60,075 bases of DNA from NCBI GenBank assembly GCA_913775725.1, contig CAJYNG010000026.1:1-60075 (forward strand), written 5' to 3'. Below are positions 37,060-58,921 of this stretch, piece by piece. The DNA is from an uncultured Stenotrophomonas sp. (GTDB taxonomy: Bacteria > Pseudomonadota > Gammaproteobacteria > Xanthomonadales > Xanthomonadaceae). Positions within the stretch are counted from its first letter, which is position 1. Each line of letters opens with the position of its first letter. Position numbers and translations under genes: made by a program. Below the pieces are notes generated by a model. That model did no database searches. It was not told the origin of the DNA and worked only from the letters and a program-made list of their open reading frames with translations.

Positions 37060-37084
37060 ACGCGCGTGGATCCATCCCGGATCG

Positions 37085-37157
37085 GTAGTGCCGGCCGCTG
37101 GCCGGCAACCTCAGGGTGGTTGGATCAAGGTGTTTGCCGGCCAGCGGCCGGTACTAC
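37085..37157. repeat. SMAG-type pair (GCCGGCCGCTGGCCGGC core)
   Basis: GTAGTGCCGGCCGCTGGCC at the left and a facing GCCAGCGGCCGGTACTAC ending at 37157. The terminal CTAC (GTAG on the minus strand) supplies the TAG stop codon of the convergent gene ending at 37154. Confidence 0.85.
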
Positions 37158-37825
37158 CCCAACGTTGGAACCTCCATCCACGGGAACGGCTTGTAGCCGC
37201 GCACCTGCAGCGTTGCGCCGATTGCGGCGAAGTCATCCTTGATCGCCTGCGCGCGACGACGATCCAGCGCTTCACCCAGCACCAGCGGCAACGCGCGGCA
37301 GCGCGCCAGCGCCTCGCCCACCGGAATCTCCAGCAAGTGCGCCACGCGTTGCGCTGCTGCTTTGATCTGCCCCTCCGGGCACGCCCTCAGCGTCAGATCG
37401 AAGGACGCGAAGATGCCCGTGCCCACCCCCGCCTCGCGCGCAGCCGCCTGTTCCGCAGCTCCCGCTTCACCCAGGGCTTCGTCGATACCCTCGACCTGCT
37501 GGAACGCGTCGTACTCGGCGTAGTACGCCAGCGCCTGCGCATAGTCCTGCAGCGACGACAGCGGGCGTTGCCGCTTCTGCACATCCAGCACGTCGGCAAA
37601 CGTGGACGGTTCCAGATACGGGAACAGCCCCATCGCTGCCGAAGTGGCCGATCGCTCACCATCGTCATCCAGTGCTTCATCACTGGATGACGGCAACCAC
37701 AACCGTGCCGCCAGCAGGTCCTCGCCACTGGCCATCACCCAGCCGAAGGCGTTCCACACCGCATCGTCATCGTTGCAGGCGGCGAAGGCATGCAGGGTCT
37801 GTTGCAGGTCCAGCAGTTCGATCAT
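37154..37825 (-). CDS. Hypothetical protein coupled to an MFS exporter
   Basis: 223 residues, soluble. The N-terminal half (MIELLDLQQTLHAFAACNDDDAVWNAFGWVMASGEDLL) is acidic and helical. The C-terminal ~80 residues (FDLTLRACPEGQIKAAAQRVAHLLEIPVGEALARCRALPLVLGEALDRRRAQAIKDDFAAIGATLQV) look like a ribosomal-L7/L12-C-like or ferredoxin-like fold in which a cluster of residues reduces to ILxxIGxxLGxAK-type repeats. I do not recognise a named family. Start ATG overlaps the MFS stop (ATGA). Its stop codon lies inside a SMAG repeat. Confidence 0.7.
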   Translation of the reverse strand: MIELLDLQQTLHAFAACNDDDAVWNAFGWVMASGEDLLAARLWLPSSSDEALDDDGERSATSAAMGLFPYLEPSTFADVLDVQKRQRPLSSLQDYAQALAYYAEYDAFQQVEGIDEALGEAGAAEQAAAREAGVGTGIFASFDLTLRACPEGQIKAAAQRVAHLLEIPVGEALARCRALPLVLGEALDRRRAQAIKDDFAAIGATLQVRGYKPFPWMEVPTLG

Positions 37826-39240
37826 GCGTCTGTGCTCAGGCAGGCGGTCGCTGCCGAGTCTACCGGCGCCGGGCGCAGGCCCAGCGCGATCAACACGCCG
37901 AGCACAGCGAACAGCGCGGCGCCGTACTGTGCATTGACCATGCCCTGCAGGGCATCGGGACTGGTTGCTGCCTGCGTGCCACGCGCGGCGTTGGCGATCA
38001 TCACCAGTACCGCCAATCCCAAGGCGCCGCCGATCTGCTGTGCGGTGGCCGCCATGCCGGACGCAACACCTTGCTGCGGACCCGGCACGCCCTGCCCCGC
38101 TACGATCCACATTGCTGTCCAGCTCATGCCCTGGCCCACACTGAGCACCACGATTCCGGGCAGCAGTGGCCAGTAGCTGGCGCCGTGCGGCATCGCCAGC
38201 GCCACCGCGGCGATGCCGATGGCACCGGCGGCGAAGCCCCAGGCCAGCACCTGCCGTGGCGAACGGCGCCGCAGCATGCGTTCGGCAATACGGATGCCGA
38301 AGGTGCACACCAATGTCGGCAGCAGGAAGGCCATGCCGGCCTGCAGCGGGCTCCAGCCATAGCCATCCTGGAAGTAGAGCGCCAGGAAGTAGTACTGCAC
38401 GCCATAGCTGCTCATGAAGGCGAAGGTCAGGCCCAGTGCCGCGCGCAGGCCGGGCAGGCGCAACAGCGAAAACTGCATCAGCGGGTCACGGCTGCGCTTT
38501 TCGATCTGTACGAACACCGTCAACAGTACGGCGGAAAGCAGCAGGCAGATCAGCGTGGCCGGCGCCGTCCAGCCCCACTCCGGCCCTTGCACCAGGGTGG
38601 TGACCAGCAGGCTGCCGCCGGCGGTGACCGTCAGGCAGCCGGCCAGGTCGAACGAGCGCCCCTGCACTCGGGGGCCATCGGCCGGCAGCCACGCACCGGC
38701 GGCGACGGCGCAGGCGGTGGCCAGTGGCACGATCACCGCCAGCACCGCCGGCCAGCCGAACGCCTGGGTCAATACGCCACCCAGCAGCGTGCCCAGCGCC
38801 AGGCCGACCGCGCTGGCCATGCTCCAGATCGCCAGTGCGCGGTTGCGCACCGGGCCTTCGGTGTAGAGCGTGTTGATCAATGCCAGCGTGGCCGGGAACA
38901 ACAGCGCCGCGCCGATGCCCTGCGCCGCACGCGCGATGATCAGCAGGGTGGCATTCGGCGCCAGCGCACCGAGCAGCGACGCCAGCGCGAACAGCAGCAT
39001 GCCCAGCCGATAGAAACGGCGGCGGCCGATCAGGTCGGCGGCGCGGCCACCCAGCAGCAGGCTGCCGCCGAAGGCGACGGTGTAGGCACTGACCACCCAT
39101 TGCAGCTGCTGCGCATTGATCTGCAGCGCGCGCCCCATGTCGTGCAGGGCGACGAAGATGATGGTGGCATCCAGGGCGATGATCAGCTGTGCGGTGGCCA
39201 GCAGGGTCAGCGCCCAGCGCGGGTATTTGAGGGGAGGCAT
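37822..39240 (-). CDS. MFS multidrug exporter, DHA2 (EmrB/QacA) type
   Basis: 472 residues with 14 predicted membrane segments. Motif A-like GGRAADLIGRRRFYRLG near 64, motif C-like WSMASAVGLALGTLLGGVLTQAFGW near 143, and the DHA2-style N-terminus LIIALDATIIFVALHDMGRALQ. Probably exports drugs or solvents by proton antiport. Divergent from a LysR gene with a palindromic operator between them, so it is the likely regulated target. A soluble gene of unknown role is coupled downstream. Confidence 0.92.
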   Translation of the reverse strand: MPPLKYPRWALTLLATAQLIIALDATIIFVALHDMGRALQINAQQLQWVVSAYTVAFGGSLLLGGRAADLIGRRRFYRLGMLLFALASLLGALAPNATLLIIARAAQGIGAALLFPATLALINTLYTEGPVRNRALAIWSMASAVGLALGTLLGGVLTQAFGWPAVLAVIVPLATACAVAAGAWLPADGPRVQGRSFDLAGCLTVTAGGSLLVTTLVQGPEWGWTAPATLICLLLSAVLLTVFVQIEKRSRDPLMQFSLLRLPGLRAALGLTFAFMSSYGVQYYFLALYFQDGYGWSPLQAGMAFLLPTLVCTFGIRIAERMLRRRSPRQVLAWGFAAGAIGIAAVALAMPHGASYWPLLPGIVVLSVGQGMSWTAMWIVAGQGVPGPQQGVASGMAATAQQIGGALGLAVLVMIANAARGTQAATSPDALQGMVNAQYGAALFAVLGVLIALGLRPAPVDSAATACLSTDA

Positions 39241-39273
39241 CGGCGGATTGGATCGGTGGGGGAGCGCAGTCTC

Positions 39274-39293
39274 ATTGATGCAACCGAATCAAT
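39274..39293. promoter_or_regulatory. LysR-type operator between MFS and LysR genes
   Basis: ATTGAT-N8-ATCAAT, an exact inverted repeat containing a T-N11-A LysR box, in the 90-base divergent spacer. Confidence 0.65.
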
Positions 39294-39330
39294 AAACCCC
39301 CTGCCCACCATTTCTGTCATGATTTTCCGC

Positions 39331-40230
39331 ATGAATGCAGCCTCGATGGACCTCAATGCGGTGCGCATGCTGGTGCAGGTGGCCGAAGCGCGCAGTTTCA
39401 CCGTGGCCGCCGGCCAACTGGGCCTGAGCCAGTCTGGCCTGTCCCGCGCGATCGGGCGGCTGGAAGTATCGCTGGGGGTGAAGCTGCTGCAGCGGAACAC
39501 CCGCAACGTGGCGCTGACCCCGGATGGCCGCCAGTTCGTGGAACAGGTGGCACCGCTGCTGGCCGGCCTGGACGACGCCGAGCGGCAACTGGCCGACCGC
39601 CCGTGCACGCCCTCGGGCACGTTGAAGATCAGTGCACCGTCGATGTTCGGGCGCAAAGTACTGGTGCCGATGCTGGCGCCGTTGCTGCAACAGCATCCGC
39701 AGCTGCAGGTGGACGCGGTGCTCAGCGACCGCCTGGTCGATCTGGTCGAGGAAGGCTTCGATGCCGCGCTGCGCACCGGCGTCATCGCCGACCAGCGCAT
39801 CGTCGCGCGGCCATTGCGGCCGCTGCGCTGGGTGACGGTGGCCAGCCCCGCCTATCTGGCCCGCTGTGGCGCACCGGACGATGTGGCCGCGCTGCAGGAT
39901 CACGCGTGCCTGGCGGTGCGCAACCTACGCAGTGGCCGGCTGGTGGACTGGCAGTTCCTGCAGGACGGGCAACTGCGCGAGGTCACGCCACCGACGCGGA
40001 TGGTGTTCGACAGCGGCGATCCGCTGGTGGAAGCCGCCATCGCCGGTATCGGCATCGTGCAGGTGATGGATTTTGCGGTGGCCGATGCGCTGGCCGACGG
40101 CCGCCTGCAGCGCGTGCTGCAGCCGTTCGAGGGCCGCAGCCGCGAACTGTCGTTGATCTATCCACCGTCGCGCCAGCATTCGCCGAAGCTGCAGGTGCTG
40201 GCCGACGCCTTGCTGGCGGGCGACTGGTAG
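39331..40230 (+). CDS. LysR-family regulator of the adjacent MFS exporter
   Basis: 299 residues from ATG 39331; ATGs at 39319 and 39346 are alternatives. N-terminal winged HTH: AVRMLVQVAEARSFTVAAGQLGLSQSGLSRAIGRLEVSLGVKLLQRNTRNVALTPDG. A periplasmic-binding-like effector domain follows (about 95-299, LKISAPSMFGRKVLVPMLAPLLQQHP). It belongs to the CrgA/AaeR-like subgroup by pattern. The stop codon TAG is part of a GTAG repeat (40227). Confidence 0.92.
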   Translation: MNAASMDLNAVRMLVQVAEARSFTVAAGQLGLSQSGLSRAIGRLEVSLGVKLLQRNTRNVALTPDGRQFVEQVAPLLAGLDDAERQLADRPCTPSGTLKISAPSMFGRKVLVPMLAPLLQQHPQLQVDAVLSDRLVDLVEEGFDAALRTGVIADQRIVARPLRPLRWVTVASPAYLARCGAPDDVAALQDHACLAVRNLRSGRLVDWQFLQDGQLREVTPPTRMVFDSGDPLVEAAIAGIGIVQVMDFAVADALADGRLQRVLQPFEGRSRELSLIYPPSRQHSPKLQVLADALLAGDW

Positions 40231-40249
40231 ATCCACGCCATGCGTGGAT
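40227..40249. repeat. GTAG palindrome overlapping the LysR stop codon
   Basis: GTAG followed by the perfect palindrome ATCCACGCCATGCGTGGAT. TAG of GTAG is the stop of the LysR gene. The same 19-base palindrome occurs at 18571-18589. Confidence 0.75.
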
Positions 40250-40261
40250 GGGTTCCTGACT

Positions 40262-40300
40262 GGGGTCAGAGCCCTTTCCGTGGGAAAGGGCTCTGACCCC
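40262..40300. repeat. GGGGTCAG-type palindrome, copy C
   Basis: Perfect 18 bp arms, GGGGTCAGAGCCCTTTCC and its reverse around a 3-base loop, 7 bases after the pip stop (minus strand), so it could act in 3'-end formation for pip and the convergent LysR gene. Confidence 0.85.
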
Positions 40301-40306
40301 GGGGCA

Positions 40307-41248
40307 TTACGCGAAGCTATCGGTGGCGCGCACCAGTGCGTCCACGTTCTCTGCTTCGAACGCCGAATGGCCCGAAGCCGGGGTGATGTCCAGCTTTGCC
40401 TTCGGCCACACCTTGGTCAGGTCCCAGGCGTTGGCCAGCGGGCAGACCACGTCGTAGCGGCCGTGCACGATCACACCCGGAATATCGGCGATGCGGTGCG
40501 CGTCGCGCAGCAGCTGGTCTTCCACCTCGAAGAAACCGCCGTTGACGAAGTAGTGGTTCTCGATGCGGGCGAACGCCAGCGCGAAGTGCGGATCTTCGTG
40601 GCTGTTGATGAAGTCATCATCAACATGCAGGAAGCTGGTCGCACCTTCCCACACCGCCCACGCCTTGGCCGCTTCCAGGCGGGTGGTTTCGTCGTCGCTG
40701 GTCAGGCGGCGGTGGAAGGCCGAGATCAGATCATGACGCTCCACCGACGGGATCGGCTTGAGGTAGTGCTCCCACGCATCCGGGAACAGGCGGTTGGCGC
40801 CTTCCTGGTAGAACCATTCCAGCTCCCAGCGACGCAGCATGAAGATGCCGCGCAGGACCAGCTCGGTCACGCGCTGCGGATGGGTTTCGGCATAGGCCAG
40901 CGCCAGGGTCGAACCCCAGCTGCCACCGAACACCTGCCAGCGATCGACCTTGAGGTGCTCGCGCAGCTTTTCGATATCGGCAACGAGGTCCCAGGTGGTG
41001 TTGTCCACCAGATCCGCGTGCGGGGTGGAACGGCCGGCACCGCGCTGGTCGAACAGGATGATGCGGTACTTGGACGGGTCGTGGAACTGGCGCATCTTGT
41101 CGCTGCAGCCGCCGCCCGGGCCACCGTGCAGCATCACCACCGGCTTGCCGTCCGGGTTGCCGCACTGTTCGAAGTACAGCGTGTGGCGGTCGTCGACCTT
41201 CAGGGTGCCGACGTCGTAGGGGGTGATGGCGGGGTACAGCGTACGCAT
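40307..41248 (-). CDS. pip: Proline iminopeptidase (alpha/beta hydrolase, S33)
   Basis: 313 residues. Cleaves N-terminal proline from peptides. Oxyanion motif HGGPGGG at 41-47, LFDQRGAGRS at 65-74, nucleophile S110 in GGSWGS, aspartate in VHGRYDVVCP near 266 and histidine in ASGHSAFE near 294. The sequence is very close to the Xanthomonas/Serratia type. No signal peptide, so cytosolic. Single gene. Confidence 0.96.
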   Translation of the reverse strand: MRTLYPAITPYDVGTLKVDDRHTLYFEQCGNPDGKPVVMLHGGPGGGCSDKMRQFHDPSKYRIILFDQRGAGRSTPHADLVDNTTWDLVADIEKLREHLKVDRWQVFGGSWGSTLALAYAETHPQRVTELVLRGIFMLRRWELEWFYQEGANRLFPDAWEHYLKPIPSVERHDLISAFHRRLTSDDETTRLEAAKAWAVWEGATSFLHVDDDFINSHEDPHFALAFARIENHYFVNGGFFEVEDQLLRDAHRIADIPGVIVHGRYDVVCPLANAWDLTKVWPKAKLDITPASGHSAFEAENVDALVRATDSFA

Positions 41249-41296
41249 GCTTGCAGCTCCAGGGTGATGCCCTGCCGGGGCAGGAGAACCTCCATT

Positions 41297-42154
41297 CTAG
41301 GCCGGACGCCGGCCCAGGGTGATGCGGTCGCGCTGCTCCAGATCCTGCACGGTCTGCACCTCGGCAAAACCCGCTGCGACAAACAGCGCGCGGATCGCCT
41401 CGCCCTGATCCCAACCATGCTCGATCAGCAACCAGCCGCCGGGCAGCAGGTGGGCCTGGCCACCGTCGACGATGCGGCGGATGTCATCCAGGCCATCCAC
41501 GCCGGAGGCCAGCGCGGTAGCCGGTTCAAAACGCAGGTCGCCCTGTTCCAGATGAGGGTCATCGCTGGCGATGTAGGGCGGGTTGCTGGCAATCAGGTCG
41601 AAGCGTGCACCCTGCAGCGGCGCATACCAGTCGTGCCCGCCCTCGCCGAAGCGGACGTTGCGCAGTTCATGGCGGGCCGCGTTGCGCGCAGCCACGGCCA
41701 ACGCGCCCGGGCTGGCATCGGTGGCCAGCACCTGCGCCTGCGGCCGTTCGCTGGCCAGTGCCAGGGCGATCGCACCGCTGCCGGTGCCCAGGTCAGCCAG
41801 TTGCAGCGATTGGTCTGGCGGCAGCCGCTCCAGCGCCAGCTCGACCAGCAGCTCGGTTTCCGGACGCGGGATCAGCGTGGCCGGGTCGACCTCCAGGTCC
41901 AGTGTCCAGAATCCGCGTCGACCGGTCAGATAGGCGACCGGCTCACCGGCCACGCGACGGGCCAGCAACGCTTCGAAGGCGGCCTGGTCGGCAGCGGCCA
42001 GCGGATCGGTGGCATGTGCGAACAGCCAGCTGCGGGGGCGGTCCAGTACGTGCAGCAGCAGCAGTTCGGCTTCGTGGCGGGCTTCGACGCCGCCCAGGCG
42101 GGCACTGGCCTCGGCCACGATCTGGCGCAGGGTGGGTTCGGTTTGGAAAGACAT
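41297..42154 (-). CDS. prmC: Release factor glutamine methyltransferase
   Basis: 285 residues. Methylates the GGQ glutamine of release factors. SAM-binding [14 protein letters not shown] at 121-134, catalytic NPPYIAS at 191-197, and the N-terminal helical domain with [12 protein letters not shown] at 94-105. Start ATG 42154 ([11 protein letters not shown]). In E. coli it follows prfA; here prfA is 26 kb away. pip lies 48 bases downstream on the same strand. Confidence 0.95.
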
Positions 42155-42163
42155 TCCGCAATT

Positions 42164-42222
42164 GTAGAGCCGAGCCCATGCTCGGCCGCTCCACCCGCAG
42201 CCGAGCATGGGCTCGGCTCTAC
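42164..42222. repeat. SMAG-type GTAG palindrome pair (last copy in the window)
   Basis: Facing units with core GAGCCGAGC...GCTCGGCT, 10 bases upstream of the prmC start. No further GTAG palindrome was found to the right of this one. Confidence 0.85.
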
Positions 42223-42366
42223 AAAAGCTGGAATTCGTTCAGGTTCTGCGGGAGGGAATAAGGAGGGGCTATCGGCCCCATTCCGTGCCTCGGGGAGATT
42301 TCCCTTGTCACACAGGCAGTCGCAGGATGAGGGCGGCAAGGTTCAGTGCCGGCTCATGGCCTTTTG

Positions 42367-42381
42367 ATAGACTCCATCTAT
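42367..42381 (+). promoter_or_regulatory. OxyR-like site upstream of ahpC
   Basis: ATAG-N7-CTAT, the OxyR half-motif, with a second ATAG-N7-CAAT at 42385-42399 that is imperfect and not at the usual 22-base register. It lies about 95 bases before ahpC, as expected for peroxide control of ahpC in xanthomonads. Confidence 0.55.
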
Positions 42382-42476
42382 CAAATAGATGCAATCAATG
42401 GATTGTTCTTATCGCGAGCGAATCGGTAACCTAGCTCCTGTTGATTCACCCACTCCCCTTCACCAGAGGAAAAATG

Positions 42477-43040
42477 ATGTCCCTCATCAACACCCAGATC
42501 CAGCCGTTCGAAGCCAACGCTTACCACAATGGCGAGTTCATCAAGGTTTCCGACAACAGCCTGAAGGGCCAGTGGTCCGTCCTGATCTTCATGCCGGCCG
42601 CCTTCACCTTCAACTGCCCGACCGAGATCGAGGACGCGGCTGACCATTACGCCGAGTTCAAGAAGGCCGGCGCAGAGGTCTACATCGTCACCACCGATAC
42701 CCACTTCTCGCACAAGGTGTGGCACGAAACCTCGCCGGCCGTCGGCAAGGCCCAGTTCCCGCTGGTCGGCGACCCGACCCACCAGCTGACCCGCGCCTTC
42801 GGCGTGCACATTGAAGAAGAAGGCCTGGCCCTGCGCGGCACCTTCATCATCAACCCGGAAGGCGTGATCAAGACCCTGGAGATCCACTCCAACGAGATCG
42901 CCCGTGACGTCGCCGAGACCCTGCGCAAGCTGAAGGCTGCCCAGTTCACCGCCGCCAACCCGAACCAGGTCTGCCCGGCCAAGTGGAAGGAAGGCGAGAA
43001 GACCCTGACCCCGTCGCTGGACCTGGTCGGCAAGATCTAA
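42477..43040 (+). CDS. ahpC: Alkyl hydroperoxide reductase, peroxiredoxin subunit
   Basis: 187 residues, as in E. coli. Typical 2-Cys peroxiredoxin: peroxidatic C47 in FTFNCPTE, resolving C166 in QVCPAKW. Reduces organic peroxides, hydrogen peroxide and peroxynitrite and is recycled by AhpF. The ATG at 42477 is chosen over 42474 because AGAGGA then has a 6-base spacing. Preceded by an OxyR-like site; ahpF follows after a 226-base spacer with a 19 bp inverted repeat. Confidence 0.97.
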
Positions 43041-43114
43041 AGCAGTACCGGCCTGCCGTGGCCCCACGCCACGGCGCGCCCTTCATCCCCGTGCCGGCCC
43101 CCCCCGCCGGCGTG

Positions 43115-43193
43115 GGGGTGAACCCAAGACAGCCAACGCACGCCAGCCTTGGCCAGCCAGCCCCTTCCACGGTCGCTGTCTTGGGTTCACCCC
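43115..43193. repeat. 19 bp perfect inverted repeat between ahpC and ahpF
   Basis: GGGGTGAACCCAAGACAGC (43115-43133) and its exact reverse complement (43175-43193) around a 41-base loop. It could separate ahpC and ahpF expression as an attenuator or stabilise the ahpC message; no T-run follows. Confidence 0.8.
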
Positions 43194-43266
43194 TACCCCC
43201 TGCTGGTCCGCTACCTTCTACAGCGGTGCCACGCCCCCTGTTTGCCTGAAGCCAGGAGAAGACCCG

Positions 43267-44832
43267 ATGTTGGACGCCAACCTGCAGTCGCAGCTGAAGA
43301 CCTATCTGGAGCGCGTGACCCGCCCGATCCAGATCACCGCGCACGCCGACGAGGGCGCCAAGTCGCAGGAAATGCTGGAACTGCTGCAGACCCTGGACAG
43401 CCTGTCGGACAAGATCTCGCTGCAGGTACTGCGCGATGGCCAGGGCCGCGTGCCGTCGTTCGATCTGGGCACGCCGGGCCAGGACATCCACCTGACCTTC
43501 GCCGGCCTGCCGATGGGCCACGAGTTCACCTCGCTGGTGCTGGCGCTGCTGCAGGTGGGCGGTCATCCGTCCAAGGCCACCGCCGAGCTGATCGAACAGG
43601 TGCAGAACCTGGAAGGCGAGTACAAGTTCGAAACCTACTTCTCGCTGTCCTGCCAGAACTGTCCGGACGTGGTGCAGGCGCTGAACCTGGCCGCGGTGCT
43701 CAACCCGCGCATCCAGCACGTGGCCATCGACGGTGCCCTGTTCCAGGACGAAGTCGAGAAGCGCGAGATCATGTCGGTGCCGACCGTGTACCTCAACGGT
43801 GAAGTCTTCGACCAGGGCCGCATGACCCTCGAGCAGATCGTGGCCAAGCTGGATACCAATGCCGGCAAGCGCGATGCCGAGAAGATCGCCGCCAAGGACG
43901 CTTTCGACGTGCTGGTAGTGGGCGGTGGCCCGGCCGGCGCGGCAGCAGCGATCTACGCCGCACGCAAGGGCATCCGTACCGGCATCGCCGCCGAGCGTTT
44001 CGGTGGCCAGGTGCTGGACACCATGGCGATCGAGAACTTCATTTCGGTGAAGGAGACCGAAGGCCCGAAGCTGGCCACGGCGCTGGAACAGCACGTGCGC
44101 GAGTACGAGGTGGACATCATGAATCTGCAGCGCGCCAGCGCGCTGGTGCCGGCCGGTGAAGACGGCCTGGTGCAGGTGCAGCTGGAAAACGGCGCAGTGC
44201 TGAAGTCGCGTTCGGTGATCCTGTCCACCGGCGCGCGCTGGCGGCAGATGAACGTGCCGGGCGAAGACCAGTACCGCAACAAGGGCGTGGCCTACTGCCC
44301 GCATTGCGATGGTCCGCTGTTCAAGGGCAAGCGCGTGGCGGTGATCGGCGGTGGCAACTCCGGCGTGGAAGCGGCCATCGACCTGGCCGGCGTCGTCGCC
44401 CAGGTGACCCTGATCGAATTCGACAGCCAGCTGCGCGCCGATGCCGTTCTGCAGCGCAAGCTGCACAGCCTGCCGAACGTCAAGGTGATCACCAGCGCGT
44501 TGACCACCGAGGTGGTCGGCGATGGCGAAAAGGTCACCGGCCTGCGCTACAAGGACCGCACCACCGACGCGTCGCACGACCTGGCGCTGGAAGGCATCTT
44601 CGTGCAGATCGGCCTGCTGCCGAACACCGATTGGCTCAAGGGCACGGTCGAGCTGTCGCCGCGTGGCGAGATCATCGTCGACGCCAAGGGCCAGACCAGC
44701 ATCCCGGGCGTGTTCGCCGCCGGTGACGTGACCACCGTGCCGTACAAGCAGATCGTCATCGCCGTGGGCGAGGGGGCCAAGGCCTCGCTGGCGGCCTTCG
44801 ATCACCTGATCCGCACCTCGGCGCCAGCCTGA
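43267..44832 (+). CDS. ahpF: Alkyl hydroperoxide reductase, flavoprotein subunit
   Basis: 521 residues. N-terminal double-thioredoxin domain with SCQNC (C129, C132), FAD-binding GGGPAG at 219-224, redox-active CPHC (C344, C347), NAD-binding [15 protein letters not shown] near 358, and [12 protein letters not shown] at the C-terminus. Passes electrons from NADH to AhpC. Its own spacer after ahpC may hold a separate promoter. A strong bidirectional hairpin follows. Confidence 0.98.
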
Positions 44833-44851
44833 TCGCCAGGCGCCGCACATG

Positions 44852-44887
44852 AAAACGCCGCCATTCCCTGAGGGATGGCGGCGTTTT
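44852..44887. terminator. Bidirectional terminator between ahpF and sstT
   Basis: 13 bp stem AAAACGCCGCCAT/ATGGCGGCGTTTT, with A-run and T-run on the two sides, so it can stop both convergent genes. Confidence 0.85.
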
Positions 44888-44910
44888 CATTGCCGGCGGT
44901 AACGCCGCGA

Positions 44911-46122
44911 TCAGGCGCCGCGTTGTTCCATTGCCTGGCACGCTGCAGCGGTGAACAGCACGTCGGTGGAGGAGTTCAGCGCGGTTTCCGCCGAGTCCTG
45001 CAGCACGCCGATAATGAAACCGACCGCCACCACTTGCATGGCGATCTCGCTGGGGATGCCGAACAGGCTGCAGGCCAGCGGAATCAGCAGCAGCGAGCCG
45101 CCGGCCACGCCTGATGCGCCACAAGCGCAAACCGCCGCCACCACGCTGAGCAGCACCGCGGTCGGTAGGTCCACCGGGATACCCAGGGTGTGCACGGCGG
45201 CCAGGGTCAGCACGGTGATGGTGATCGCCGCGCCGGCCATGTTGATGGTCGCGCCCAGCGGGATCGACACCGAATAGGTATCCTCATGCAGGCCGAGTTT
45301 TTCCGACAGCGCCAGGTTGACCGGGATGTTGGCCGCCGAGCTGCGGGTGAAGAACGCGGTGATGCCGCTCTCGCGCAGGCACAGCAAGGTCAGCGGGTAG
45401 GGGTTGCGGCGGATCTTCCAGAACACGATCAGCGGGTTCATCACCAGCGCCACGAACAGCATGCAGCCGATCAGCACGCCGAGCAGGTGCAGATAGCCGA
45501 GCAGCGCGTCCAGGCCCGATTGCGCCAGGGTGGCGCTGACCAGGCCGAAGATACCCAGCGGGGCGAAGCGGATCACCACGCGCACGATCAGGGTCACGCC
45601 GTTGGACAGGTCCTCGACCACGGTGCGGGTGGTGTCGTTGGCATGGCGCAGGGCCACGCCCAGGCCGATGGCCCAGGTCAGCACGCCGATGAAGTTGGCG
45701 TTGAGCAGCGCGTTGACCGGGTTGTCCACGGCGCTGAGCAGCAGGTTCTGCAACACCTCGCCGATACCGCCGGGGGCGCTCAGCGTGGCGTCGCTGGCGC
45801 TCAGTGCCAGGTTGGACGGGAACAGCATGCTTGCCGTCACGGCCACCACCGCTGCGGCGAAGGTGCCCAGCAGGTACAGCCAGAGGATCGGGCGGATGTG
45901 GGTTTCCTGGCCATGGCGGTGGTTGGCGATCGAAGCCATCACCAGGATGAACACCAGCACCGGCGCCACGGCCTTCAGGGCGCTGACGAAGACCTTGCCG
46001 AGGAACGCCAGGTCGCGGGCCACGGCCGGGGCGAGCAGGGCGAGGAGAATGCCGGCCACCAGGCCGATGCAGATCTGCGTCACCAGGCCGGTGCGGTTGA
46101 TGAGGCGGAGGATGGGGGTCAT
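44911..46122 (-). CDS. sstT: Serine/threonine:sodium symporter SstT
   Basis: 403 residues, DAACS family. About nine membrane segments. [38 protein letters not shown] near 50-88, [19 protein letters not shown] near 267 and [31 protein letters not shown] near 295 are the SstT signature loops; [16 protein letters not shown] lies at the C-terminus. Takes up serine and threonine with sodium. The gene sits at the point where the window changes from Stenotrophomonas-like to Pseudomonas-like. I cannot say by eye to which side it belongs. Confidence 0.94.
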
Positions 46123-46218
46123 GTGCAGCGCAATCCAGTTACGTGAAAGCGCGCGACTTTATCACAGACCCGCAGGGCATATCGTGGCAACGGGCCTGTC
46201 CCGCGATCACCGGCCGAT
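46123..46218. other. Spacer at the probable genome-type junction
   Basis: The 96 bases between sstT and the nhaR-like gene. The right part (GGCAACGGGCCTGTCCCGCGATCACC, split here as GGCAACGGGCCTG and TCCCGCGATCACC) is the style of P. putida intergenic sequence. No repeat, tRNA or attachment core is visible. Confidence 0.45.
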
Positions 46219-47112
46219 CTACCAGTGAAACAACTCCCGCCGCGCGCCCTCGGTGATCGCCAGGATCCCCGGGTGCTTGACCTTGCGCTCTACCGAAATG
46301 GCGTAGAACGACTCGTTCACCGCCTCGGTCTGGCCGATCAGCCTCACGCCGTACTGGCGGCAGACCTCCTCGGCGATCACGCTGGGGGCGACGAAGATGC
46401 CGCTGCCCGACTGGCCGAAGGCCTGCATCAGCGCGCTGTCGTCGAACTCGCCGACGATGCGCGGCTGCACCTGCTGCTCGGCCAGCCAGCGCAGCAGCCG
46501 GCTACGCACCACGGTCTCCTGGCCGGGGATCAGCAACGGTGCGTCGTCCAGGCAGGCGGGGAAGGGCCGGTCGAGGCGATCGGCCAGCGTGGGCGTGGCG
46601 AAGAAGCTCAGGCCGCATTCGCCGAGTTTCTGGCTGTAGCCCTTGATGTCCAGGTGGCTGGGCATGGGGCTATCGGAGATCACCAGGTCCAGGCGCTGGA
46701 TCGCCAGGTCCGCCAGCAACCGTTCGAGCTTGTCCTCGCGGCAGCTGATGCGCAGCACCTCGTCCAGCTCCATGGTCGGCGCCAGCAGGCGGTAGACGAT
46801 GGACTTGGGCACCACGTCGGCCACTCCCACGCGAAACAGGATCTGCTCCTGCGGCCCGGCCCGCAGCATGGCCTCCAGTTCGCCGCCGATCTGGAACATC
46901 TGTTCAGCGTAGACCAGCGCCTGGCGCCCGGTCTCGGTCAGCTCCAGCTGGCGGCCGACGCGCTGGAACAGCTCGAGGTTCCAGGTCTGCTCAAACAGGC
47001 TGATCTGACCGCTGATGGTCTGCGGGGTGAGGTTCAACTGCTCGCTGGCGCGGGCGATGCTGCCGGTCTTGGCCACGGCCCAGAAATAGTGGAGCTGGCG
47101 GTAGTTGAGCAT
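46219..47112 (-). CDS. nhaR: LysR-family regulator, NhaR-like
   Basis: 297 residues. N-terminus MLNYRQLHYFWAVAKTGSIARASEQLNLTPQTISGQISLFEQTW is that of NhaR-type regulators, which sense sodium/pH and act on antiporter genes. Effector domain from about 93, with GVADVVPKSIVYRLLAP, DLVISDSPMPSHLDIKGYSQKLGECGLSFFA. It is the first gene with clear Pseudomonas character. A second sodium gene, nhaB, lies 9 kb to the right; whether it is a target is unknown. Confidence 0.9.
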   Translation of the reverse strand: MLNYRQLHYFWAVAKTGSIARASEQLNLTPQTISGQISLFEQTWNLELFQRVGRQLELTETGRQALVYAEQMFQIGGELEAMLRAGPQEQILFRVGVADVVPKSIVYRLLAPTMELDEVLRISCREDKLERLLADLAIQRLDLVISDSPMPSHLDIKGYSQKLGECGLSFFATPTLADRLDRPFPACLDDAPLLIPGQETVVRSRLLRWLAEQQVQPRIVGEFDDSALMQAFGQSGSGIFVAPSVIAEEVCRQYGVRLIGQTEAVNESFYAISVERKVKHPGILAITEGARRELFHW

Positions 47113-47244
47113 GGCCTTTCTCGGTTCGGGAAAACCGAAGTATACACGCTGAAAAAACGAATTTTCCGGATGTTTCAGCCCCTCTAGAATGCCATTCCAT
47201 CAGGCGCATGACGCGCCGCCCGGCATTCGACAAGCGAGGACCCC

Positions 47245-47484
47245 ATGCTACAACTCAAATCCATTGGTACACCGCTGGTGCTGGCACTGGCCCTGCTCGC
47301 CATGTCCGGTTGCGACCAGGCCGAGAAATCCGCCCAGCAGATGCTCGACCAGGCCGCCGAAACCGCCAAGCAGGCCATCGACAAGACCAACGACGCCGCC
47401 CAGCAGGCCCTGAGCGACGCCATCGGCGGCGATGCCGAGAAGGCCAAGGCCGAAGACGACAAGAAAGACACCCAGGACATCTGA
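47245..47484 (+). CDS. Small helical lipoprotein
   Basis: 79 residues. Lipobox AMSGC (cysteine near 23) followed by an amphipathic, alanine/lysine-rich helix (QAEKSAQQMLDQAAETAKQAIDKTNDAAQQAL) and an acidic end. It resembles small envelope lipoproteins of Pseudomonas. Preceded by GCGAGGA. It sits 15 bases before the TerC gene and may be co-transcribed. Function unknown. Confidence 0.8.
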   Translation: MLQLKSIGTPLVLALALLAMSGCDQAEKSAQQMLDQAAETAKQAIDKTNDAAQQALSDAIGGDAEKAKAEDDKKDTQDI

Positions 47485-47499
47485 GAGCAGGACTGACCA

Positions 47500-48255
47500 A
47501 TGGAATATTTGCTGGAACTCGCCGCAAGCCCCACCGCCTGGGTTGCCCTCGCCACCCTGGTGGCCATGGAGGTCGTGCTTGGCATCGACAACCTGATCTT
47601 CATCTCCATCCTCACCAACAAGCTGCCTGAGCAATACCGCTCCAAGGCACGCCGTATCGGTATCAGCATGGCCCTGGTCATGCGCCTGGCGCTGCTCAGT
47701 ACCGTGGCCTGGATCGTTCAGCTGACGGAGCCTGTGGTCGAGGTGTTCGGCCACACATTCTCGTGGAAGGACATGATCCTCATCGCCGGTGGCCTGTTCC
47801 TGCTGTGGAAGGCGACCAAGGAGATCCATGAAAGCGTCGACCCTCACGGCGCCAAGGAAGAGTCCAAGGTTGGCAGCACCGTGACCATCGGCTTCACCGC
47901 GGCGATTTTCCAGATACTGCTGCTGGACATCGTCTTCTCGATCGACAGCATCATCACCGCCGTGGGCATGACCGAGCACCTGCCGATCATGATCATCGCC
48001 GTGATCAGCGCCGTCATCGTGATGCTGGTAGCCGCCGACCCGCTGGCCAAGTTCATCAACGACAACCCGACCGTGGTGATGCTGGCCCTGGGCTTCCTGA
48101 TCATGATCGGCATGACCCTGATCGCCGAAGGTTTCGGCGCACATGTGCCGAAAGGTTATGTGTATGCGGCCATGGCGTTCTCCACGGCGATCGAGATCCT
48201 CAACATCCTGGCGCGTCGGGCACGCTTGAAGCGTGAGGCGGCCGAGGGCAACTGA
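47500..48255 (+). CDS. TerC-family integral membrane protein
   Basis: 251 residues with seven membrane helices. The two TerC acidic signatures are present: [16 protein letters not shown] near 26-41 and [18 protein letters not shown] near 144-161, whose glutamate and aspartates are thought to handle metal ions. The family includes tellurite-resistance TerC and manganese exporters such as Alx/MeeF; with no ter genes nearby a metal-export role is more likely (inference). A hairpin terminator follows. Confidence 0.92.
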
Positions 48256-48281
48256 GCCGCAAGCTACAAATGATAATAAGC

Positions 48282-48305
48282 AAGAGGGAGCCTGGGCTCC
48301 CTCTT
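48282..48305 (+). terminator. Terminator after the TerC gene
   Basis: 11 bp perfect stem AAGAGGGAGCC/GGCTCCCTCTT with a very short loop, ending CTTGTCGTT; also usable by the small gene on the other strand. Confidence 0.75.
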
Positions 48306-48336
48306 GTCGTTCATGGCTCGAAGTGTGTAGATGCTG

Positions 48337-48516
48337 TCAATGAGCCCCGGCATGGCGTCGGACACGGCGCATGGGCTGGGCGTTGGCCAGTGCATGGGGT
48401 GGCAGGTGATGAGGGTGGGAATGCCGGCGCACGATGCGCAACACCCCCCAGAGCATGGCCGCCGCAACGCTGAGCCACATGCCGACCAGCATTAGAATTG
48501 CCATTGTCAGGCTCAT
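48337..48516 (-). CDS. 59-residue single-pass membrane peptide
   Basis: MSLTMAILMLVGMWLSVAAAMLWGVL forms one hydrophobic helix, followed by a basic, histidine-rich tail (RIVRRHSHPHHLPPHALANAQPMRRVRRH). The start at 48516 is preceded by a strong AAGGAGG at 6-7 bases, the main support that it is real. Convergent with the TerC gene. Function unknown; the histidines might bind metal, given the TerC neighbour. Confidence 0.65.
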   Translation of the reverse strand: MSLTMAILMLVGMWLSVAAAMLWGVLRIVRRHSHPHHLPPHALANAQPMRRVRRHAGAH

Positions 48517-48720
48517 GTGTGCCTCCTTATCTCTGGCGAGCCAGACTCGCCATCCAGACACAGCTTTAGTCTAGCCCGTCGCCTGTGACGTTCCATTGAC
48601 CGAAGGTCTAGTCCTTGGGTTGTTTTGTTCCAAGCCCGCGCCGGGCTATACCCGCAGGCGCCAGCGTCCTATGATCGGCTTCTTGGTCGGGCGCTGCCTG
48701 CCTGACCGCGGAACAAGCGA

Positions 48721-49413
48721 GTGTCCACGTTGCAAAAGCTCTCCAAGTTTCGGGCCCTGGGCCCACGTCGCCTGCTGGCCGCCTGCCTGGTGGTGGCGAC
48801 CCTTTCCGGTTGCGCAAGCTCGCCGCCGGCCGTGCTCAAGGGCCTGGCGCAGCGGGTCGAGATCAGCAGCGTGCCGTTCTATCGCGGCAACGCCAACCAC
48901 AGCGGCTCGATGGCCCTGGCCGCGGTGCTGTCGCAACAGGGCGCGCCGATTACCCCGGGCCTGCTCGACAAGGCGCTGGGCCTGCCCCAGGCCGCCGAAT
49001 CGCTGGATACCGGCATCCCCCGGGTTGCCCGCGAATATGGCCGGGTGGTGTACCCGCTGGACAAGCACCTGGACGCCTTGCTCGCGCAGGTGGCCGCCGG
49101 TTATCCGGTGCTGCTGCGCTACCAGGAAGGTTCGGCCTGGTGGAGCGAGACGCGCTACGCCGTGTTGATCGGCTATGACCGCTACAAGCAGCGGGTGCTG
49201 TTGCGTTCGGGCATGCATCGACGGCAGTTGATGGCCTTCGATGATTTCGAATCGGCGTGGGCCAAGGAGGGCAGTTGGGCGGTGCTGCTGCAGTCGCCAC
49301 GGCAGCTGCCGGCCGAGGTGGATCGCCAGCGCTGGTTGCGGGCGGCGGATGAGCTGGCCCGTTCAGGGCAGGAGATTGCCGCCAGGCAGGCGGTTGCCAG
49401 CCTGGGCCAGTGA
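48721..49413 (+). CDS. C39-peptidase-like lipoprotein lacking catalytic residues
   Basis: 230 residues with a GTG start. Lipobox LSGC (cysteine near 31), then a C39-like fold. Where active C39 enzymes have a QxxCGPAAL motif this protein has NANHSGSMALAAVL (about 57-70), and where the catalytic histidine would be (HxVVxxGYD) it has RYAVLIGYD. It should therefore be inactive as a peptidase. A C-terminal helical segment (LRAADELARSGQEIAARQAVASLGQ) may be a TPR half-repeat. Probably an envelope binding or scaffold protein. Confidence 0.75.
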   Translation: MSTLQKLSKFRALGPRRLLAACLVVATLSGCASSPPAVLKGLAQRVEISSVPFYRGNANHSGSMALAAVLSQQGAPITPGLLDKALGLPQAAESLDTGIPRVAREYGRVVYPLDKHLDALLAQVAAGYPVLLRYQEGSAWWSETRYAVLIGYDRYKQRVLLRSGMHRRQLMAFDDFESAWAKEGSWAVLLQSPRQLPAEVDRQRWLRAADELARSGQEIAARQAVASLGQ

Positions 49414-49493
49414 TGGCTTGGCCAGTTGCAGGACGCCGCCTGCAGTTCAAACGTGCCTCTACCGATCGAATGAGAGCATTGTCGCGAAAGGGC

Positions 49494-49895
49494 TTATTGG
49501 ATCGCCGTCTCGTGCAGGCAGCGCCACACCACCCCACGGTCGCTGCATTCGAGCAATGCCAGCGACCAGCGTGCCAGTGTCACGTCCTGCGCGCGGTGGG
49601 TTTCCTTGTAGCGCACCGCCACATTCACCCCGGCCTGCCACACCACTTGCACATCGCCGACCGTGATCTGCAGCCCGGGCCGTGTGCCTGCGGCCCCCTT
49701 GAACAACTGCTCGACCTGCTGGCGGCCCACTAGCCTGCCTGTCGTGCCCACCATGCTGAAATCGTCGGCGAACACCGCCATCAGGCCGCCGAGCACCGAC
49801 TGGGTCTCGGCCGCCGACCGAGTGAAGATCATCTGGATCAGTTCGTGGACGTGATGAATGCTGCGTTCGGCGCGGGCAATCGCGTGTTCAGGCAT
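49494..49895 (-). CDS. SnoaL/DUF4440-like protein
   Basis: 133 residues with an NTF2-like cone pattern: ERSIHHVHELIQMIFTRSA..., LMAVFADDFSMVGTTGRLVGRQQVEQLFKGAAGTRPGLQITVGDVQVVWQAG and ARWSLALLECSDRGVVWRCLHETAIQ. The family includes small isomerases and binding proteins. It overlaps the MFS gene upstream by 8 bases, so they share an operon under the divergent LysR regulator. Confidence 0.7.
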   Translation of the reverse strand: MPEHAIARAERSIHHVHELIQMIFTRSAAETQSVLGGLMAVFADDFSMVGTTGRLVGRQQVEQLFKGAAGTRPGLQITVGDVQVVWQAGVNVAVRYKETHRAQDVTLARWSLALLECSDRGVVWRCLHETAIQ

Positions 49896-51243
49896 GGGCG
49901 TGGTTCTCCTTGGGCAGTGTGTTCAGTACCAACAATGGCAGCAGCCCCAGCAGCGCGGCCAGAGCAAAGGTCAGGCGATAGGCCGAAGACGCGTCCAGGT
50001 CCACCAGCAGCAGGTTGAAGATCATCAGCAGCAAGGCTGCGCCGACGCTGAAGGCCATCTGTCGATTGAGGTTCCACAGTACGCTGGCCTGCTGCATCCG
50101 CTCGCCGCTGAAATCGAGCAGCGCGGTCGTCTGGGCGGTGTTGGCGCCGACGCCGCCGCCGATACCCATGAGGCCGTAGGCCGCGACCAGCGCGGCGCTA
50201 TCCGTCGACGTGGCGACCCATATCAGCAGGCTGATACCCAGGCTGTGCAGAAGCAGGCCGAGCAGCAGCAGGCGGACGGCACCGACGCGGTTGTACAGGC
50301 GGCCGGTCACCAGCATGGCGGCCAAGGCTCCGGTGGCATAGACCAGCATGAACAGGCCGGTGGCCTGGGCGCTCAGTTTCAACACGTCCTGCAGGTAGAA
50401 GATGTTCAGCAGGTTGACCCCAGTGAACACACCGGGGATCGCATGGTAGACCTGCATCGAGACCCGCAGACGAGGGCTGCCGAGCAGCTTGAGTTCGACG
50501 ATGCCGCCGGCCGAGCGTCGGTAGTGGGCGCGGTACAGCAGGGCGCAGGACACGCTGGCCAGCAGGCAGGCGATGGTCAGCGCGAGGCCATGGCCAGCGC
50601 CGTACAGCGACAGACCCAGCAGCAGGCCGGCGAGGGTGGCGCTGACCAGCAGCAATCCCTTGAAGTCCGGGCGGGAGGCTGTCGGGCCGGGCGTCTGGTC
50701 AATCCAGGCCCAGGCCAGCGCCGCCGTCAGCAGGGCCAGCGGAATGTTGCAGTGGAAGACCCACGGCCAGCGGCCATGGTCGACGATCATCCCGCCGAGG
50801 GTCGGCGACAGCGCCGGCGCCAGTAGCGCCACGGCCATCACCAGGGTGGACACGCGGGCGCGCTCCGGGCCCTGGAACCGCTCGAAGGTCAGCGCTTGCC
50901 CCACAGGGATCAGCAGGCCACCGGCCATCCCCTGGAGCAGACGCCAGGCGATCAGCGCGGCGAAGCTTGCGGCTTCCCCACAGCCCCAAACTGCCACGCT
51001 GAACCCCAGCATCGCGGCGCACAGCAGGCGCCGCGCGCCCCAGTGGTTCGCCAGCCAGGTGCTCACCGGCACGGCCAGGGTCAGCCCGAGCATGTAGGCG
51101 TTGCCGACCCAGGCGCTGCTGGCATTGCCAATGGCGAACTGGTCCGTGATCCGCGGCAACGCCACGGTCGGCATGAACAGGTTGATGCAGTCGATGAAGA
51201 AGCCCATCAGGAAGATCGTTGCCACGCGATATCGGTACGTCAT
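49888..51243 (-). CDS. MFS exporter, DHA2-like
   Basis: 451 residues with about 14 membrane segments. Start MTYRYRVATIFLMGFFIDCINLFMPTVALPRITDQFAIG, motif A region LANHWGARRLLCAAMLG near 64, motif C-like ALLAPALSPTLGGMIVDHGRWPWVF near 128. Probably a drug or metabolite exporter. It diverges from a LysR gene across 90 bases and overlaps the SnoaL-like gene downstream, a typical LysR-controlled efflux unit. Confidence 0.9.
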   Translation of the reverse strand: MTYRYRVATIFLMGFFIDCINLFMPTVALPRITDQFAIGNASSAWVGNAYMLGLTLAVPVSTWLANHWGARRLLCAAMLGFSVAVWGCGEAASFAALIAWRLLQGMAGGLLIPVGQALTFERFQGPERARVSTLVMAVALLAPALSPTLGGMIVDHGRWPWVFHCNIPLALLTAALAWAWIDQTPGPTASRPDFKGLLLVSATLAGLLLGLSLYGAGHGLALTIACLLASVSCALLYRAHYRRSAGGIVELKLLGSPRLRVSMQVYHAIPGVFTGVNLLNIFYLQDVLKLSAQATGLFMLVYATGALAAMLVTGRLYNRVGAVRLLLLGLLLHSLGISLLIWVATSTDSAALVAAYGLMGIGGGVGANTAQTTALLDFSGERMQQASVLWNLNRQMAFSVGAALLLMIFNLLLVDLDASSAYRLTFALAALLGLLPLLVLNTLPKENHAHA

Positions 51244-51333
51244 TGCCACTCCTTTTCGGCGCGCAGCGTAGGTGCCGTGGACTGTCCCCGTCGATATCGC
51301 TACCCTTGAAACTCTGTTTGATGGAAGTGAACA

Positions 51334-52236
51334 ATGCCGCGCACGGCCCTCCACACCCAGCTCAACCGGGTGCAGACGTTTCTGGCGGTGGTCGATTTCG
51401 GCTCCTTTACCAAGGCGGCGGACTTTCTCGGCATCAGCAAAGCCATGGCCAGCCAGCACGTCAAGGCGCTGGAGCAGGCCCTGGGAGTGACGCTGCTGGC
51501 GCGCAGCACCCGTTCCATCGCCCTGACCGAAACCGGCCAAGGTTTCTACGAAGACTTCAAGGTGATCGTCAGCGATGTCGAAGGCGCCTTCGACAGTGTG
51601 CTGCGCCGGCACAATGGCGTATCAGGCCGACTGCGCATCAGTACCACCGGGGAGTACGGCGAGCGCTTCATCCTGCCGCTGATCCCGGTGTTCGCCGAGC
51701 GCTACCCAGCGTTGTCGATCAGCTACGAGACCGACTCGTCGCTGAGCGACCTGATTGCCGAACGGCTCGACCTGGTGGTGCGCCTCGGTGCCCTGATGGA
51801 CTCGAACCTGCGCAGTCGCAAGCTGGCTGACTACGATATTCTGCTGGTGGCCTCACCGCCCTTTCTCGCTCGCCATGCCATCACCGAGCCTGCCGACCTT
51901 GCGCAGGTACCCTGGATCGCCAATAGCAACCTGCGCAGCCCGACCAGTTGGACCTTGCACGCAACGCGCAGTGGCAGTGCGAGCGTGGTGGGCAAGGCGG
52001 TCTACCAGTCCAATGCGTCCCACGCCATCCGGGCGATGGCCTGCGCCGCGCTGGGCGTGGCAGTGCTGCCTGCCTGGCTGGTCGAGGAGGATCTGGACGC
52101 CGGCAGGTTGCGGCGCGTGTTGCCGGACTACAGCCTGCCGGCGCAGCCCATCAGCGTCGTCTACCCGAACAGCAGCCATGTGCCGCACAAGACCCGGGTG
52201 TTCATCGACTTCCTGTGCGAGCACCTGGGGCGCTAG
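51334..52236 (+). CDS. LysR-family regulator of the divergent MFS unit
   Basis: 300 residues. HTH: NRVQTFLAVVDFGSFTKAADFLGISKAMASQHVKALEQALGVTLLARSTRSIALTETG. Effector domain with LRISTTGEYGERFILPLIPVFAERYPALSISYE, and AMACAALGVAVLPAWLVEEDL near 230. CrgA-like subgroup by pattern. It ends one base before the stop of the TetR gene on the other strand. Confidence 0.92.
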   Translation: MPRTALHTQLNRVQTFLAVVDFGSFTKAADFLGISKAMASQHVKALEQALGVTLLARSTRSIALTETGQGFYEDFKVIVSDVEGAFDSVLRRHNGVSGRLRISTTGEYGERFILPLIPVFAERYPALSISYETDSSLSDLIAERLDLVVRLGALMDSNLRSRKLADYDILLVASPPFLARHAITEPADLAQVPWIANSNLRSPTSWTLHATRSGSASVVGKAVYQSNASHAIRAMACAALGVAVLPAWLVEEDLDAGRLRRVLPDYSLPAQPISVVYPNSSHVPHKTRVFIDFLCEHLGR

Positions 52237-52237
52237 T

Positions 52238-52858
52238 TCATGGCTCCAGGCCGATACCGCGCAGGATGACGCCGGTGACGGTCTGCACCGCTTGCTCGAA
52301 CGCCACGTCGGACAGCGACTCGCCGCCATTGAGCAGGTTGACCTGGTAGCCGAAGTCGGCGTAGTGCTGGGTCGTGGCCCAGATCATGTACAGCAGCGCA
52401 GACGGCTCCACCGGCAGGATGCGGCGTTCCTCGACCCAACTGCGGATCTTCGCTTGCTTGAGCTGCGCCCAGGGCACCAGGATTTCGTCCAGGCTGGCGC
52501 CGAGCAGCGGGGCGCCGTGGAGCATCTCCTCGGCCCAGATCTTCGAGCCCAGCGGCCTTGAGCGCGAGTGGCCCATCTTGGCGCGGATGTAGCTGGTCAG
52601 CACCACCCTGGGGTCGTCAAAGCGCTCGAAGCACAGGGCGTCCTGCTTCCACACATCCAGCAGGTCCTGCAGCACGGCGCGGTACAGCTCGTCCTTGGTG
52701 CTGAAGTAGTAGTGCAGGTTGGAGCGCGGCAGTTGCGCCAGCTCGGCGATATCGCCCATGGAGGTGGCGCCGTAGCCCTTGTCGGCGAACACCTGCTCGG
52801 CGGCTTGCAGGATCTTCTCGACGTTGCGCCGGCGGATCTCGATCTTGTGGTTGGCCAT
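52238..52858 (-). CDS. TetR-family regulator, RutR-like
   Basis: 206 residues. TetR HTH: NVEKILQAAEQVFADKGYGATSMGDIAELAQLPRSNLHYYFSTKDELYRAV. The C-terminal domain has RPLGSKIWAEEMLHGAP and VEPSALLYMIWATTQHYADFGYQV, the pattern of RutR/YcdC-type regulators that respond to pyrimidines or related bases. The ATG at 52858 is taken as start. No rut or pyd genes are in view. Next to it on the other strand is the remnant of a hydrolase gene. Confidence 0.85.
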   Translation of the reverse strand: MANHKIEIRRRNVEKILQAAEQVFADKGYGATSMGDIAELAQLPRSNLHYYFSTKDELYRAVLQDLLDVWKQDALCFERFDDPRVVLTSYIRAKMGHSRSRPLGSKIWAEEMLHGAPLLGASLDEILVPWAQLKQAKIRSWVEERRILPVEPSALLYMIWATTQHYADFGYQVNLLNGGESLSDVAFEQAVQTVTGVILRGIGLEP

Positions 52859-52997
52859 GGGCTGTCCGTGGTGACCTGAACAGGGCAAGGCTAACAGCTT
52901 TGCCAGGGCCAAGGTTAACGGCCTCGCGCTCCTGCAGAGAAACGTGTAAACCCTGGCTGCTCGGCAGCAGGGTCAATGCCTGGCGCAGGCGCTCGAC

Positions 52998-53153
52998 GAT
53001 CGACTCGGTGCGCTGCTGACGATGCGGGGGCACGCCGACGCGTTGCAGGGCGTAATCCTGCCGGGTTGCGGGCATTTCGTGGTGGAGGAAGGGCCGGTGT
53101 CGTTCAACGAGCACCTGCTGGCGCTCCTGGAGGAGGTCGAGGTCAACCGCTGA
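52998..53153 (+). pseudogene. C-terminal remnant of an alpha/beta hydrolase gene
   Basis: The plus strand reads DDRLGALLTMRGHADALQGV and then ILPGCGHFVVEEGPVSFNEH, followed by LLALLEEVEVNR and a stop. This is the catalytic-histidine end of an epoxide-hydrolase/haloacetate-dehalogenase-type protein. Upstream the frame is closed by a TAA at 52947 and no nucleophile or aspartate part exists. The rest of the gene has been lost, perhaps with the present TetR gene as its former neighbour. Confidence 0.65.
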
Positions 53154-53385
53154 TCGCGGTCCTGGCCCTGGCGGCGTCGGTCACCACCTGCGGGCGGCCG
53201 GCGCGCGACACCGCCAGTTTGCGCTGCTCGTACTCTTCCAGACTCAGGCCCTGACGTTGCAGCGCTTCGAGTTGCAACTGGCGAGTTTCCTCGGCGGTAT
53301 AGGGGCGCTGCTCGGGATGACTGGCACAGCCGCTCAGCACGGCGATGGCCAGGGCAGCGAGGAGGTGGCGGGCGGTGGTGTTCAT
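53143..53385 (-). CDS. Small lipoprotein
   Basis: 80 residues. Signal with lipobox LSGC (cysteine near 20), then SHPEQRPYTAEETRQLQLEALQRQGLSLEEYEQRKLAVSRAGRP, a charged helix pair. It overlaps the end of the hydrolase remnant by 11 bases. I do not recognise a named family. Confidence 0.72.
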   Translation of the reverse strand: MNTTARHLLAALAIAVLSGCASHPEQRPYTAEETRQLQLEALQRQGLSLEEYEQRKLAVSRAGRPQVVTDAARARTAISG

Positions 53386-53539
53386 CGGGGCGGTTCCGTG
53401 AGCCTGGGGTTCGAGGGTGTCGAATCGATGAGCTCAGGTTATTGGCCACGTTGACGCTTTGGAAATTGCTGCGCTCGATAGTGACTATTGAAGGATAAGC
53501 ATATCCTGCCGCTACGGGCTTGCGCTGTCTGGTCCGTCC

Positions 53540-54241: not shown

Positions 54242-54273
54242 GGGACGGGTCTCCGGGGCAGGGGGCTCTGATC

Positions 54274-55624: not shown

Positions 55625-55630
55625 CCGAGC

Positions 55631-56409: not shown

Positions 56410-56418
56410 AGGGTTCGG

Positions 56419-58885: not shown

Positions 58886-58921
58886 CTGGACAGTGGCGGG
58901 CGCCATCAAGGGACCCGAACC

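Follow-up and report, generated by a model that had tools for sequence, protein, structure and literature searches.

Known routes to a change of lineage within a contig

Homologous replacement after natural transformation produces a switch of lineage inside a conserved housekeeping gene, at the point of highest identity. The DNA analyzed here, referred to below as the window, is a stretch of 60,075 bp that makes up the whole of contig C26 in an assembly (G000) of 4.56 Mb and 28 contigs. It resembles such a replacement in that its switch also lies in a conserved housekeeping gene at the highest identity, and it differs in that it has only one boundary, the contig terminates in a repeat specific to the donor, and the recipient flank was not recovered. 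As far as the available part of its description extends, the "interspecies translocation" misassembly of mixed or metagenome assemblies is similar to the window in several respects: the lineage changes at sequence common to both partners, the foreign side keeps its native order, a second contig is chimeric, and marker-gene contamination is low. The difference on the same partial description is that the run shared at the join of the window (no more than ~115 bp, estimated from relatives) is below the 127-bp overlap found at contig ends. The available portion of the GUNC report (PMC8201837) states that nonredundant contamination is detected with lower sensitivity by marker-gene estimates, CheckM included, and that GTDB contains chimeric genomes. 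The window is like the chimerism treated in that portion of the report in having a mixed lineage of a kind whose extent can be underestimated by methods based on single-copy markers, CheckM among them; GUNC scores the lineage homogeneity of contigs (PMC8201837), whereas here chimerism was judged by alignment rather than by a GUNC score.

Lineage of the two arms

The earlier note had proposed that two genomes, one of Stenotrophomonas and one of the Pseudomonas putida group, are joined in this window, and alignment proved this to be so. The features of the left part are as follows.

1..44282, + strand: Stenotrophomonas chromosomal arm (alignment to congeners)
1..265, - strand: left contig end, in a tuf (EF-Tu) gene (translation)
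42441..43040, + strand: ORF containing ahpC, Stenotrophomonas type (TIGR03137, 310.8 bits; cutoff, 272)

Bases 1 to 6,000 were 93% identical to three congeners (G005, G381, and G322) in a search of 61 genomes of the genus. A foreign source for these first 6 kb, which had no match in the G007 and G004 stretches, was rejected on the basis of this identity. From ~6 to 44 kb, G007 and G004 aligned in long colinear pieces at ~89 to 94% identity and also gave small repeat-like pieces at 78 to 86%. The ahpC gene of the window had ~75% DNA identity to the Pseudomonas copies. The ahpCF region was matched by all 12 congeners searched, with the matches stopping at 44,813 to 44,829, and the sstT region was matched at 75 to 77% in three of the 12 (G003, G006, and G011), away from ahpF. 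None of the 12 congeners matched across the join among the matches listed (one genome per species).

The right part begins inside ahpF and contains the following features.

44398..60075, + strand: Pseudomonas chromosomal arm in the order of G202 (L165, L166; alignment)
44911..46122, - strand: sstT, Pseudomonas (NF010151, 670 bits)
46219..47112, - strand: nhaR, Pseudomonas (NF008284, 278 bits)
49414..49501, no strand: apparent second break relative to P. peradeniyensis, contiguous in G202 (alignment)
52978..53025, no strand: point at which ~2.3 kb of G202 and P. peradeniyensis sequence is absent from the window (flanking matches)
56419..58395, - strand: ORF containing nhaB (PF06450, 736.5 bits)
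58922..59752, + strand: nudC-type NAD(+) diphosphatase gene (NF001299, 324 bits)

G202 was the one genome found to be contiguous across 49.4 kb when 199 Pseudomonas genomes, drawn evenly from a larger group, were searched. It aligned to the window from 43,263 to 52,923 at 91.7% identity and from 53,011 to 59,739 at 93.6%, and its ahpF adjoins sstT. The SstT protein of the window was 99% identical to that of P. peradeniyensis, and 78 of the best 80 of 242 relatives carried Pseudomonas titles. A Pseudomonas-type sstT was also seen in records titled Pantoea sp. Cy-639 (L023) and Paucimonas sp. MAG Fux382_bin17 (L070), whose proteins are 94% and 87% identical, respectively, to that of the window; these two records look misnamed or contaminated.

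The matches of the right arm to P. peradeniyensis were pieces scattered over different contigs. A second join at 49.4 kb, where the two halves fall on separate P. peradeniyensis contigs, was considered and rejected because G202 is contiguous there, covering positions 1 to 1401 of a 1,401-bp query across the point at 92% identity. Near 53.0 kb, the flanking matches overlap by 15 bp (53,011 to 53,025). Another genome, G025 (titled P. soli via locus L019), likewise lacks the ~2.3-kb stretch, its two matches being 55 bp apart, and the absence can therefore be a natural deletion; it may also be another assembly slip. Except near 53.0 kb, these alignments show the usual Pseudomonas order throughout the right arm, the 3' part of ahpF included. 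A plasmid or phage source for the right arm was rejected because no record covered 80% of the query; the best plasmid match extended over 7% of it at 76.5% identity, and one phage match extended over 4%.

Position of the join

43267..44832, + strand: ahpF, mosaic ORF (Stenotrophomonas in the 5' part and Pseudomonas in the 3' part, frame kept; TIGR03140 AhpF, 799.5 bits)
44283..44397, no strand: crossover interval, where the two lineages are almost identical (diagnostic bases)

The join had been placed near sstT, in the interval from 44,890 to 46,218. That position was rejected because the identity profiles of the two genera cross sharply within ahpF; the switch lies between 44,283 and 44,397, ~500 to 600 bp to the left of the proposed interval, which is Pseudomonas throughout, with its sstT side in G202 order. 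When 7 Stenotrophomonas and 37 Pseudomonas ahpF sequences were compared, the last Stenotrophomonas-diagnostic base was 44,283 and the first Pseudomonas-diagnostic base was 44,397. Strict limits were set with G202 added (7 versus 38 sequences): base 44,282 agrees with 7/7 Stenotrophomonas and 0/38 Pseudomonas sequences, and base 44,398 agrees with 0/7 and 38/38, respectively. A tighter right limit at 44,392, where the window agrees with G202 and with none of the seven Stenotrophomonas sequences, was dropped because 37 of the 38 Pseudomonas sequences differ there too. Bases 44,304 and 44,313 are unlike all 7 Stenotrophomonas and 36 of the 38 Pseudomonas sequences, indicating that neither parent is exactly represented among the sequences compared.

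The 113-bp segment from 44,284 to 44,396 ranks first of 146 along ahpF in cross-genus identity, at 0.93 against a mean of 0.77. The longest run common to any of the 7 × 38 pairs is 95 bp (44,302 to 44,396), and the run shared by the actual parents at the join is at most ~115 bp, as judged from these relatives. Since the reading frame is kept across the switch, the ORF scores as a full AhpF. Family searches of the neighbors of the join identified ahpF, sstT, and nhaR, along with a YkoY/TerC-like protein that scored below the cutoff.

Contig ends and missing continuations

59782..60075, + strand: dispersed Pseudomonas repeat containing the contig end (copies in Pseudomonas genomes)

This terminal repeat has many copies in Pseudomonas genomes among the matches listed. 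No second copy was found in assembly G000, and no copy was present in the Stenotrophomonas stretches L096 to L098 and L172 to L177. If the Pseudomonas block sat alone in a Stenotrophomonas genome, the repeat would be unique and the contig would have no reason to stop there. When the G202 DNA that lies past the contig end was searched for in G000, only short weak matches elsewhere were obtained. At the other end of the contig, the translation of bases 1 to 265 is what we take to be EF-Tu, and this segment has a second match in many congeners among the matches listed; thus, both ends of the contig lie in repeated sequence.

The genes that come after ahpF in the congener G007 are oxyR, rnk, and the transaldolase gene (tal). 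The family scores of OxyR (324.1 bits; cutoff, 329) and transaldolase (380.5 bits; cutoff, 396.2) in G007 were both just under threshold. A gre-like identity for the gene after oxyR was rejected since the family search returned a nucleoside diphosphate kinase regulator, rnk. Substantial matches to the oxyR-rnk-tal stretch were found in all eight congeners among the 13 genomes searched, the transaldolase part being on another contig in G006. In G000 the same search returned a single 34-bp match, and in G014, which belongs to another family, it returned none.

Properties of the assembly and of its other contigs

The quality figures listed for the assembly are 99.82% completeness and 2.72% contamination, and the shortest of its 28 contigs is 13.8 kb. 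A search of the assembly for a 16S rRNA gene found none; the control search gave a signal in 9 of 14 known genomes from outside the genus. An exact 127-bp sequence is common to each of 10 pairs of contig ends, which accounts for 20 of the 56 ends of the assembly (L119 to L147 and L184 to L208), and the other 36 ends, including both ends of C26, are without a 127-bp partner. One further pair of ends, on C8 and C12, has 99 bp in common. End overlaps of 127 bp are left by a de Bruijn assembler such as SPAdes run with k = 127, and the 127-bp and 99-bp overlaps are likely a fingerprint of the k values of the assembler. Taken together, the 127-bp overlaps, the missing 16S rRNA gene, and the lack of short contigs suggest a length-filtered draft or a metagenome bin.

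Contig C13 (L119), which holds the next Stenotrophomonas genes, is itself spliced. Its first part (C13:1-3,100) is 92 to 97% identical to another genus of the family, g15 (G232, G283, G309, and G335 among 119 genomes), and congeners reach 84 to 85% over the glnS portion of C13 among the matches listed. The contig turns to Stenotrophomonas inside glnS, between 3,104 and 3,175, as determined with three g15 and three Stenotrophomonas sequences. The matching 5' part of the Stenotrophomonas glnS sits on C4 (L120), and C4:1-37 is the same as C13:3,117-3,153. C4 departs from Stenotrophomonas glnS at ~1.2 kb and has a G+C content of 49 to 62% over its first 16 kb. C4 starts inside the Stenotrophomonas glnS, and in C4:1-8,000 the N-terminal part of that gene and the DNA upstream of it, at ~55 to 58% G+C, would come from another source. 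When C4:1,000-8,000 was searched against 20 relatives, one 67% match and short chance matches were all that was obtained, and a plasmid source for the low-G+C part was rejected since there was no match in the plasmid collection. C4 probably carries a further lineage switch; it is regarded as probable rather than proven because no source was found for its low-G+C DNA.

Origin of the join

On the alignments presented above, the contig is ~44 kb of Stenotrophomonas DNA joined in the middle of ahpF to ~16 kb of Pseudomonas DNA, and it is almost certainly an inter-genus chimera that arose during assembly or library preparation. Our confidence that an artifact of some kind is responsible is very high, and, as the earlier note had argued, an artifact is judged to be much likelier than a transfer. 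The read set would have contained three or more genera, two of them represented by a Stenotrophomonas and a strain of the Pseudomonas putida group. The step between these two genomes may have been made by the assembler or by a chimeric molecule, via the ahpF stretch in which they are nearly identical, and the path would then have run on in Pseudomonas until the Pseudomonas repeat halted it. A length filter would have removed the short contigs, among them the true ahpF-oxyR-tal piece.

Several observations count for a chimera: the switch falls at the ahpF stretch that is most alike in the two genera; the right arm is in G202 order, with ahpF beside sstT; none of the 12 congeners searched matches across the join; both the Pseudomonas continuation and the oxyR-rnk-tal stretch are missing from the assembly; C13 switches from g15 to Stenotrophomonas within glnS, and contig ends overlap by 127 bp; and no 16S rRNA gene was found in an assembly whose shortest contig is 13.8 kb. 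The end in a Pseudomonas repeat that is single copy in G000 counts for a chimera and against a transfer. Counting against a chimera are the clean in-frame switch, which is also expected of real homologous recombination, the good quality figures, the 36 of 56 contig ends that have no 127-bp partner, and the failure to find the one Pseudomonas repeat searched on any other contig. A further point against it is that the parents, judged from relatives, share a run of fewer than 127 bp in ahpF. A simple node at k = 127 therefore cannot be the join, and because C4 and C13 likewise share only 37 bp, an earlier and smaller k, gap closing, or chimeric molecules have to be invoked. This need for a step besides the final graph is what favors the variant in which template switching during PCR or whole-genome amplification of a mixed sample created the chimeric molecules in the laboratory. 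Such molecules would be expected to be outnumbered unless hardly any reads come from the true junction, and we consider this variant, which lies within the odds of the chimera as a whole, unlikely.

Real homologous recombination, in which a Pseudomonas segment of 15.7 kb or more, carrying core genes, entered at ahpF and replaced or displaced oxyR-rnk-tal, would account for a switch that keeps the frame and falls where homology is highest, for the finding of no second ahpCF in G000 among the matches listed, and for the absence of oxyR-rnk-tal, as though replaced. Against this, the contig ends in Pseudomonas with no second crossover and no Stenotrophomonas DNA beyond the block, the end repeat is single copy here and would not halt an assembler if the block had integrated alone, the neighboring Pseudomonas DNA was not found in G000, and C13 is spliced in the same manner to yet another genus; we therefore regard recombination as very improbable. 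The idea of a single unusual genome spanning the entire contig, with markers that mislead, could draw on the similar G+C content on the two sides of the join (~0.62 to 0.70). It is refuted, and its probability is negligible, since each arm is ~89 to 95% identical to its own genus over kilobases and the profiles cross sharply. The preferred reading of an inter-genus chimera gives the join no importance as biology; its value is as a data-quality case, in which contigs of a genome with good marker-gene figures are spliced across genera within conserved genes (ahpF and glnS). Anyone mining this genome would be led to report an inter-genus transfer, a hybrid AhpF enzyme, or the loss of the oxyR and transaldolase genes, and it is unlikely that any of these is real.

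Repeat markers

The join had originally been proposed on the basis of dispersed repeats. By our own definition of a GTAG-tagged hairpin, 18 such palindromes are present in the window, at 12 loci between 1.81 and 42.2 kb, and the part to the right of the join has none, in line with what had been noted; 20 first-order Markov sequences used as a null gave a mean of 0.5 and a maximum of 1 per whole window. The two sequences described from the right part were also on that side as exact matches: GGCGGGTCACTTTTTG occurs once in the window, at 59,849, and CTGCAGGAGCGGC occurs once, at 56,380, with an inverted partner carrying one mismatch at 56,397. A further 24 matches to CTGCAGGAGCGGC with two mismatches are spread across the window.

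Copies of the REP classes SM9, SM8, and SM4 are among the GTAG palindromes of the window, and these are listed as Stenotrophomonas classes in the available part of one source (PMC3686654); the left arm was named Stenotrophomonas because it contains them. However, the available part of another source (PMC3733652) records GTAG-tagged REPs in Pseudomonas too, and under uniform placement the p value for all 12 loci falling on the same side is ~0.026, so that the repeat argument is weak alone and was rejected as proof by itself. A facing pair of GTAG palindromes lies at 42,163 to 42,234; related copies are found at dispersed sites in this genome and in several congeners.
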